Assembly (NCBI GenBank): GCA_000332255.1
Contig: KB235926.1
Span: forward strand, 30,005-94,004
Direction of reading: 5' to 3'
Length of the DNA: 64,000 nt
Source: a cyanobacterium PCC 7702
GTDB taxonomy: Bacteria; Cyanobacteriota; Cyanobacteriia; Cyanobacteriales; Nostocaceae
Below the pieces are notes generated by a model. It was not told the DNA's origin and did no database searches. It saw nothing but the letters and a program-made list of their open reading frames with translations. A program made the position numbers and the translations under genes. Positions 46,506 to 48,566 of this stretch are shown piece by piece; position 1 is the stretch's first letter; every line of letters begins with the position of its first letter.

Positions 46506-47721
46506 ATGACCAGCATCTTTCCAGAACAAGAAGCCGCACTCAAGCTTGAAGATTACGATGTTAGCCAAGAATGTGGTTTTTTACCGAGTCAATCTCCTGC
46601 TCGTGCTCAACTACCACCAGCTTTTGAGCAGGTGCAACAAGCTGCTGCTTTACTCCCGAAATGGCTAACTACCGGTAAGATTCGCTCCCTGATAGAGAAC
46701 CTCAGGGAAATAAACGCAGACCCAAAAAACTTAGACCAGATGCAACTGCGCCGACTGATGCAGGTATATTCCTTCCTCGCTCACGCCTATGTTTGGGGCG
46801 AAGCAACACCCGCAAAAGACTGCCACGCAATCTTGCTGTACCGTATTATCAGATTTCCCAAATGCTAGGTAGACCTCCTGTTTTGTCCTATGCTTCCTAT
46901 GCTTTGGATAACTGGGTGCGGATTCGGGAAAATCTACCCGTTGAAATCGGTAATATCATTATTTCCCAAAATTTCTTGGGCGGACTGGATGAAGATTGGT
47001 TCATTCTCATCCACATTGATATCGTAGACGCGCGAAGCGCGGCTTCTCGTTAGAGAAGCTAAAGCTGCACCTGCACTTGCTGCTATTCCCCCTCTTTTGC
47101 AAGCGATCGCTACACAAAAATTTTCCGCCGCGATCGCTGCTTTAGAAGAAATCAAAAAAGCCTGGACAAATATCAACACTACCATGCAGCGCATGCCCCA
47201 AGGCTGCGATCCCTACATTTACTTCCACCGTGTTCGCCCCTACATCCATGGCTGGAAAAATAATCCCGCACTACCACAAGGACTCGTCTATGAAGGCGTA
47301 GAAGAATACAACCAAAAACCACAACAGTTTCGCGGCGAAACAGGTGCCCAAAGCTCCATACTACCTACCATGGATGCTTTATTCAATATCTCCCACGAAC
47401 GCGACCCCTTATGGCAATACCTGATGGAAATGCGAAATTACATGCCACCCAAACACCACGCCTTTATCAAAAAAGTGGAAAAACACTCTACCTTGAGGAA
47501 TTTTGTTATCAAACACAAACAACAAGTACCAACACTTAGAGTATAATGACTGCGTGTCCCTGATCGAAAAATTCCGTACCCAACATTTGGAATTCGCTCA
47601 CCGCTACATCCACCAGCGAACTGCTAAGTTCTACAACAATACCGATATCGGTACAGGCGGTACACCTTTCCTAAAATATTTGCAAAAACACCGCAACGAA
47701 AGCAAACAGCATCTATTATAA
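46506..47721 (+). pseudogene. Indoleamine 2,3-dioxygenase-like gene, broken in three places
   Basis: Four consecutive frame pieces reconstruct one protein of about 400 aa. Piece 1 (46506-about 46835) has FEQVQQAAALLPKWLTTGKI; piece 2 (to 47023) has NLAVPYYQISQMLGRPPVLS; piece 3 (47055-about 47525) has QQFRGETGAQSSILPTMDAL and LMEMRNYMPPKHHAFI; piece 4 (to 47721) has YNDCVSLIEKFRTQHLEFA and GTGGTPFLKYLQKHRNE. These are IDO family blocks (haem enzyme opening the indole ring of tryptophan). Breaks are a 1-nt loss near 46835, the 31-nt element at 47024-47054, and a shift near 47525. No functional protein is expected. Confidence 0.88.
47024..47054 (+). mobile_element. 31-nt palindromic element, copy 1 (inside the IDO pseudogene)
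   Basis: The sequence starts GTAGACGCGCGAAGCGCGGC and ends TTCTCGTTAGA. It contains nested palindromes (CGCGC-GAA-GCGCG; GAAGC-GCG-GCTTC). Deleting exactly these 31 nt joins ATC to GAAGCT, restoring the IDO frame (HIDI-EAKAAPAL). An identical copy is at 48437-48467. Confidence 0.85.
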
Positions 47722-47971
47722 GTAGTTGAATTTCCTCTCTCAGTCCTAAAAAAGGAAGCCTATTCCTGCAGGAAAATCTCATAACCTCAGGTAAAAATTC
47801 TATTAAAAACATCTTAATGTTTTTGTCCTTTGTCACTTCTGCAGTTTTTTATCAATTCTGACAGAAAGCCCCCATACGAAACACAGTGAAGCTTGGGGAT
47901 GAAAGCCAGGGCAAAAATTAAAACACTTAACCAAATAACCCTAATTAGTTAAGCGTTATAGAATCAGACGT

Positions 47972-48363
47972 ATGGGAAATAAGGCTTACAAATTCAAAAT
48001 CTATTCCAATCAAGAGTAATCAGCATTTTTGGCAAAATGTTTTGGTTGTTCGAGATTTTTCTACAACCACTTTTTAAGAGTAACTACTGATGTTTACGTA
48101 GAATCCAAGAAATCTCTGCGATACAAAGAATGGGCAAAACTCTTAGTTTCTCTTAAGTCTGAATTTAAATAGCTTAAAGATGTTAATTCCGAATCACTAC
48201 AACAAACACTACAAGATTTAGAGTCTGCATTTACCAGGTTTTTTAAAAAATTAGGAGGGTATCCCAATTTCAAAAAGAAAGATAATCGACAATCGTTTAG
48301 AGTTCCACAGCATTTTTTAAGAGATGAAAAAGGATTTCTAAAACTTCCAATCGTTAGAGATGA
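47972..48363 (+). pseudogene. IS200/IS605-family TnpB remnant with two nonsense codons
   Basis: From an ATG at 47972 the frame reads MGNKAYKFKIYSNQE, stop, SAFLAKCFGCSRFFYNHFLR, ... SLKSEFK, stop, LKDVNSESLQQTLQDLESAF, KKLGGYPNFKKKDNRQSFRV. This is the N-terminal third of TnpB (the FGCSRF-YNHFL and YPNFKKK-QSFRVPQ blocks). The two stops replace the Gln and Trp expected in the family. The catalytic DED domain and zinc finger are missing. The sequence 47860-47900 contains a GC-rich inverted segment (GCCCCC ... TTGGGG) that may be the element's left end. Confidence 0.8.
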
Positions 48364-48566
48364 TGACACGCCTTTTTACGGAAAATTTTTGGATTTGGAA
48401 ATGCTTGTGGGATATACGGGGAAGGAGCGTAGTGCTGTAGACGCGCGAAGCGCGGCTTCTCGTTAGAGATGAATATCGAAATTTATTTGCTCAAGCTGAG
48501 TTTAAGCTAACGCAGATTTTTCCTACGCAGGCTTTGGTAAGTGTAATTGAAGGTGTGCGCAGCTAG
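48364..48566 (+). pseudogene. C-terminal fragment of a family 2 O-methyltransferase
   Basis: Directly after the TnpB remnant the frame reads PFYGKFLDLEMLVGYTGKER, is cut by the 31-nt element, and continues EYRNLFAQAEFKLTQIFPTQ, then SVIEGVRS before TAG at 48564. This is the usual C-terminus of acetylserotonin/hydroxyindole-type O-methyltransferases (GKFLDLNMLV...YRxLFxxAGFKLTxIxPTxSxxSVIEG). The N-terminal 250-300 residues, including the SAM site, are absent. With the IDO gene it hints that a larger operon once ended here. Confidence 0.75.
48437..48467 (+). mobile_element. 31-nt palindromic element, copy 2 (inside the O-methyltransferase fragment)
   Basis: Identical in sequence to the copy at 47024-47054. 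Removal joins GCT to GATGAATATCGA and restores the methyltransferase frame (KERSA-DEYRNLF). Both copies are on the same strand, and both are followed by GA. Confidence 0.85.

Follow-up and report, generated by a model that had tools for sequence, protein, structure and literature searches.

A recently active 31-nt mobile repeat of the SDR or GTAG-tagged REP kind in a cyanobacterial genome

The means by which repeats of about 30 nt move have been debated ever since such repeats were first described, and the two proposals made so far invoke RNA intermediates and RAYT enzymes. The SDRs of Nostoc punctiforme and its relatives, which Elhai and colleagues reportedly described in 2008, are said to form eight families of 21–27 nt. 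Two of these, SDR1 and SDR4, are reportedly self-nested, SDRs are also said to occur in heptamer repeats or minitransposons, and RNA intermediates were reportedly proposed for their spread.

Here we describe an element of 30 or 31 nt that occurs twice in the DNA analysed, a stretch of 64 kb (the window, G000:C1:30005–94004 of the window's genome, G000). By description, the element has in common with SDRs its size class, heterocystous hosts, compensatory hairpins and self-nesting. It also sits within heptamer repeats or minitransposons, as SDRs do, in Fischerella thermalis and Calothrix sp. MO_192.B10 but not in the window's genome. The reported SDR length of 21–27 nt differs from the 30 or 31 nt that empty sites give for the element, a measure open to a boundary ambiguity of 1–4 nt where the target starts with GTAG. 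SDR5 is said to occur only in HIP1 (GCGATCGC), between bases 3 and 4 (PMC4390886 for the position); just one of the 40 copies in the window's genome lies in HIP1, which excludes identity with SDR5 and also HIP1 as the target.

GTAG-tagged REPs are known from Anabaena, Nostoc and Cyanothece (families GTAG-12, -15 and -16) and include intragenic copies (Di Nocera et al. 2013, PMC3733652). By description, they share with the element an unpaired 5′ GTAG tail, a 5-bp stem with a 3-nt loop, compensatory stem variants and intragenic copies. The element's moving unit differs in including a second hairpin segment (GGCTTCYCGNAGR), and whereas GTAG-tagged REPs (REPtron) associate with RAYT, the element shows no such association. 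In a RAYT subclass that is abundant in Cyanobacteria, in-frame REP insertions within the genes have been described (PMC6006769). The first-pass annotation regarded clean insertions into genes as rarely described, which is slightly inaccurate in view of published intragenic REP insertions (PMC3733652, PMC6006769).

REPINs, which are moved by RAYTs and are found in Nostoc punctiforme (Bertels and Rainey 2011, PMC3116915), are likewise tiny non-autonomous mobile DNA, but a REPIN is an inverted REP pair, whereas the element is a single 30–31-nt unit with clean empty sites. Rickettsia palindromic elements make in-frame insertions (cited in PMC3733652) and, like the element, lie in frame within working proteins; by description, host, sequence and size differ. 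A classical MITE, with terminal inverted repeats, target-site duplication and a length of 70–300 bp, can be dismissed, as the element has 30–31 nt and no duplication beyond a 1-nt ambiguity.

From its behaviour and from these descriptions, we regard the element as a real, recently active and very small mobile repeat of the SDR or GTAG-REP kind already described for heterocystous cyanobacteria, present here as a 31-nt variant; that it is mobile and SDR-type is highly probable. It is among the smallest mobile DNA pieces known, and enters genes, non-coding DNA and itself.

The two copies and the exact unit

The 31-mer GTAGACGCGCGAAGCGCGGCTTCTCGTTAGA occurs at 47024–47054 (copy 1) and 48437–48467 (copy 2) of the window, both on the + strand and identical by exact match, as the first-pass annotation had reported. 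The number of matches expected by chance is 0, and 100 shuffles gave none even when three mismatches were allowed. Searching the whole genome (4.90 Mb, 4 contigs) yielded seven copies on both strands, of which six match exactly and the seventh carries one change, and the reversed-pattern control gave 0 matches across the same genome. Comparison of 200-bp flanks (p 0.45 and 0.71) shows the surroundings of the two window copies to be unrelated, and the copies are therefore separate insertions; a single duplication of the surrounding DNA, an origin that the annotation itself had raised, is ruled out.

Copy 1 lies within a pseudogene of indoleamine 2,3-dioxygenase (IDO; 46506–47721, + strand), located by tblastn with the intact 399-aa congeneric IDO, a protein that matches Pfam IDO with an E-value of 6e-101. 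Excising exactly 31 nt rejoins HIDI-EAKAAPAL, as predicted, and the congeneric IDO reads HIDIEAKAAPAL without an insert. The site is empty in both congeners, G001 and G002 (ATT^GAAGC), with zero bases gained or lost, and the target bases that follow copy 1 on its right, GAAG (47055–47058, + strand), belong to the ancestral gene, being present in both congeners without the insert. Copy 2 lies within the C-terminal remnant of an O-methyltransferase gene (48350–48566, + strand), in which the predicted junction KERSA-DEYRNLF likewise forms on removal. It is followed by GATG (48468–48471, + strand), in agreement with the genome-wide preference for Y^GA(A/T).

Seven of the ten family loci tested (IDO and six more) have clean empty sites in both congeners, the remaining three being too diverged for judgement. 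At the lysC site, many further genomes align across the joined flanks at equal length, with the insert absent. The unit is also defined by nesting, independently of empty sites. At about 3.0021 and 3.0025 Mb of G000:C1, the 31-mer is inserted in itself, with three units nested at one site and two at the other; cutting out the inner 31-mer regenerates an exact 31-mer, and after three rounds and two rounds, respectively, leaves TTTGCGTTT^GATGGC and TTTCT^GAAGCA, both of which are ordinary Y^GA sites. The self-insertion point is always GTAGACGCGC^GAAGCG, between the stem and the loop of hairpin 1. We read the loci as insertions rather than as precise losses in both congeners on the strength of this self-nesting and the wide emptiness of the lysC site, not of a dated tree. 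Clean empty sites and regenerating nested insertions together give good support to the earlier proposal that the element moves as an exact unit.

Clean empty sites show that nothing was deleted and that any target duplication is confined to a 1-nt (G) ambiguity, so that the duplications suggested by the annotation as something to look for did not appear. The ambiguity arises because unit and target both start with G; a one-base duplication is thus compatible with the data, and a longer one is excluded at these sites.

Family, target and host genes

Most relatives of the 31-mer in the window's genome have 30 nt and consist of GTAGAC, a stem, a 3-nt loop, the second strand of the stem and GGCTTCTCGTAGA, followed by GA(T/A). 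In the 31-nt form GTAGA is replaced by GTTAGA, the one extra base falling in the second loop. The consensus of the 30-nt elements is GTAGACGCSCnnnGSGCGGCTTCYCGTAGR. Copies were listed by pattern searches with up to three mismatches, which miss more diverged ones. In the host family the pattern is present in 103 of 193 genomes, with a maximum of 75 copies in one genome, and the reversed-pattern control gave 0 matches in any of the 193. Carriers include Fischerella, Calothrix, Nostoc, Brasilonema, Tolypothrix, Dendronalium and Amazonocrinis. The GTTAGA form is nearly limited to the window's genome (7 of 15 sites among the matches listed); one other genome contributes two exact-pattern sites. No other GTDB species genome searched contains the exact 31-mer; a plasmid collection gave no match to it, in a search that is weak for a 31-nt query, and a literature search for the literal motif showed nothing relevant among the items listed. 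The 31-nt form has spread recently in the window's genome, with about ten insertions of near-identical sequence.

The annotation called the element palindromic, a loose term: the unit does contain a 5-bp hairpin, but the second, shorter hairpin needs target bases to complete it. Folding is unremarkable for the bare unit (z about −1.3) but striking with the flanking GAAGC that completes hairpin 2 (z −4.0). Among 48 distinct 31-column copies, helix 1 is compensated in four of its five pairs and helix 2 alternates between U-A (28) and C-G (19); 96.6% of cells are paired, 54 are double-changed, and the observed score was reached by none of 500 shuffles. T2, A3 and G4 are invariant in these copies, and G1 is conserved in at least 90%.

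Larger repeats surround many copies of the element in two other genomes. In Calothrix sp. MO_192.B10 (e.g., L192, L204 and L236), it is embedded in a bigger unit that recurs, gtgtacaaacgttcat[element]gtggggctaacttgaaaatagtt, and that appears to be a minitransposon carrying it. Copies in Fischerella thermalis PCC 7521 (e.g., L195, L216 and L233), the genome labelled G010 and recognised by its identical flanks, lie within short tandem repeats of the tgatgggg type.

A pyrimidine precedes the unit in 39 of 40 copies in the window's genome and in 56 of 56 elsewhere, and the base after the unit is nearly always G. At +2, A is found in 31 of the 34 G-starting copies of the window's genome, against T in 50 of 56 elsewhere; the target rule is therefore Y^G(A/T), switched between lineages. 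The GA that the annotation had seen after both copies is thus a true preference in this genome, although the rule for the family as a whole is Y^G and Y^GT prevails in most other genomes. GAAG, which is complementary to the element's CTTC, is the target of 13 of the 40 copies in the window's genome. Target choice by pairing with CTTC fails elsewhere, where the targets are GTGG, GTAG and GTAC.

Both window genes are damaged beyond the insertions, and the claim that each copy destroyed a coding frame is overstated. Compared with the intact 399-aa proteins of both congeners, the IDO pseudogene has at least two frameshifts besides the insert, at about 46.83 and 47.54 kb. The methyltransferase remnant comprises, by tblastn, only the last ∼60 residues of intact relatives of ∼350 aa (Pfam Methyltransf_2 positions 175–209 of 210, below cut-off). 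The 31-nt insertions may therefore be later than the death of the window genes. The frame that hosts the three-deep nest is still broken after removal of all three units, and no intact host gene was found for any 31-nt copy, the sites being dead genes or non-coding DNA.

Directly adjoining the methyltransferase remnant (together 48173–48566) is a further remnant (48173–48346, + strand), which resembles the TnpB-like frame of the IS605-type element at G000:C1:3.828 Mb (BLASTP, 64% over 33 aa) and in which no Pfam family was recognised. This arrangement suggests that most of the methyltransferase gene was lost through an IS-linked deletion. The window's genome measures 4.9 Mb, compared with 7.8–7.9 Mb in the two congeners, contains several pseudogenes and retains most of its Y1 transposases only as fragments; it looks like a genome in decay.

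The 30-nt form has a different set of hosts. In-frame copies lie within long reading frames, among them those that Pfam assigns to aspartokinase (lysC), a MurF-type Mur ligase and an LpxA-type acyltransferase. The lysC gene (G000:C1:2559824–2560752; L058 and L059) has two in-frame copies in opposite orientation, one of them close to the conserved GRGGSDT motif. In the region of the second insertion (L058), congeners G001 and G002 have different short extra sequences (L102 and L103), and this linker appears to be repeatedly variable. From our reading of the sequences, a putative aldehyde dehydrogenase, an NRPS and an Mfd-like protein may be further hosts. The 30-nt form is tolerated in working genes because it adds ten codons, whereas the 31-nt form shifts the frame.

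Route of movement and significance

On balance, we favour the reading that copies 1 and 2 are independent insertions of a non-autonomous 30–31-nt mobile repeat of the SDR or GTAG-tagged-REP kind, moved in trans by a single-strand route. For the route taken by itself, a single-strand, HUH-like mechanism fits the junctions best and is a good possibility, though short of probable; some other route is less likely but well worth considering. Duplication-free insertion beside a short motif, with a hairpin near the GTAG tag, resembles HUH/Y1 single-strand transposition (general logic in PMC6006769). On the bottom strand, the element ends in ...GTCTAC and the target ends in C, as (A/T)TC in the window's genome and NAC elsewhere. 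An enzyme encoded elsewhere would recognise the GTAG-plus-hairpin fold as single-stranded DNA, cut the bottom strand after CTAC at one end of the element and after a similar target motif at the other, and join the strand with no duplication, as HUH/Y1 enzymes do. Copies showed no orientation bias by chromosome arm (two-arc test, p 0.57, a weak test in which the replication origin was not located).

The mover could be the IS605-type TnpA at G000:C1:3828404, the remaining candidate for the transposase in trans that the annotation had suggested, or else a host replication or repair enzyme, but we consider this unlikely. Y1 transposase matches in the window's genome are IS605-like, and this TnpA is the only intact frame found among fragments; IS200/IS605-type insertion is duplication-free and uses hairpins and a short target, as is established (PMC6006769). 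However, element-like half-sites are no commoner near Y1 genes than in shuffled DNA, and the Y1 protein of the copy-rich Fischerella thermalis PCC 7521 (G010) differs, with 24% identity. None of the Y1 transposase loci in the window's genome is flanked by the element. With half-site matches at the shuffled level, derivation from an IS200/IS605 parent with matching half-ends was rejected.

An RNA intermediate, in which a two-hairpin RNA would insert through base pairing and then be reverse-transcribed, is a still weaker candidate. It is reportedly the route favoured by the SDR authors; the compensatory changes suit an RNA fold no less than a DNA one, and the GAAG target of the window's genome would pair with CTTC. 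This complementarity is gone in other genomes, however, and the reverse transcriptase profile (PF00078), found in 26 of 31 genomes searched, has no match in the window's genome or in Fischerella thermalis PCC 7521. Within genes, sense and antisense copies are about equally common, and insertion into mRNA was rejected on that ground.

Movement by a RAYT, as proposed for GTAG REPs, with the gene recently lost from the window's genome, is more doubtful again. The 5′ GTAG tail and stem-loop are those of cyanobacterial GTAG REPs (PMC3733652), and RAYTs are present in many relatives, including the congener G002. Against this, at an E-value of 0.001 the RAYT query had no match in the window's genome, Fischerella thermalis PCC 7521, G033, G073 or G104, which contain 13–42 element copies each, and a close RAYT is missing in 20 of the 25 genomes with ten or more copies. 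Across 193 genomes, the mean copy number is 4.8 with and 4.5 without a close RAYT (p 0.24), and this lack of association rejects a RAYT in trans as the current mobiliser. The examined RAYT loci have no flanking element. A REPtron architecture was also rejected: the 166 kb surrounding Y1 transposase loci contained one element-like site, which was not at a RAYT. The present absence of RAYT or reverse transcriptase is compatible with recent loss. That there is no mobility at all, the copies being assembly artefacts or old repeats spread by gene conversion or slippage, is very improbable: several processes can copy very short sequences, but sites that are cleanly empty, nests that are exact and copies that are identical amid unrelated flanks speak against it, and the nested sites refute it as a general explanation.

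The single-strand route in trans remains our preferred reading, and the contrast between the 30-nt and 31-nt forms suggests that selection sorts a mobile element by whether its length is divisible by three. Aspartokinase and MurF, enzymes expected to be essential, contain ten-residue inserts. The unexpected part, and to us the most interesting point, is that both proposed mobilisers are undetected in two copy-rich genomes, the window's genome and that of Fischerella thermalis PCC 7521. Recent and exactly delimited insertions in the window's genome, and a named strain that likewise shows neither mobiliser, make the mobilisation question directly testable. More tentatively, a 30-nt DNA element could transpose, also into itself, with neither RAYT nor reverse transcriptase and under a target rule that has switched between lineages, being Y^GT or Y^GA; we hold this rather unlikely, but if true, it would reveal a new way in which the smallest mobile elements are mobilised.
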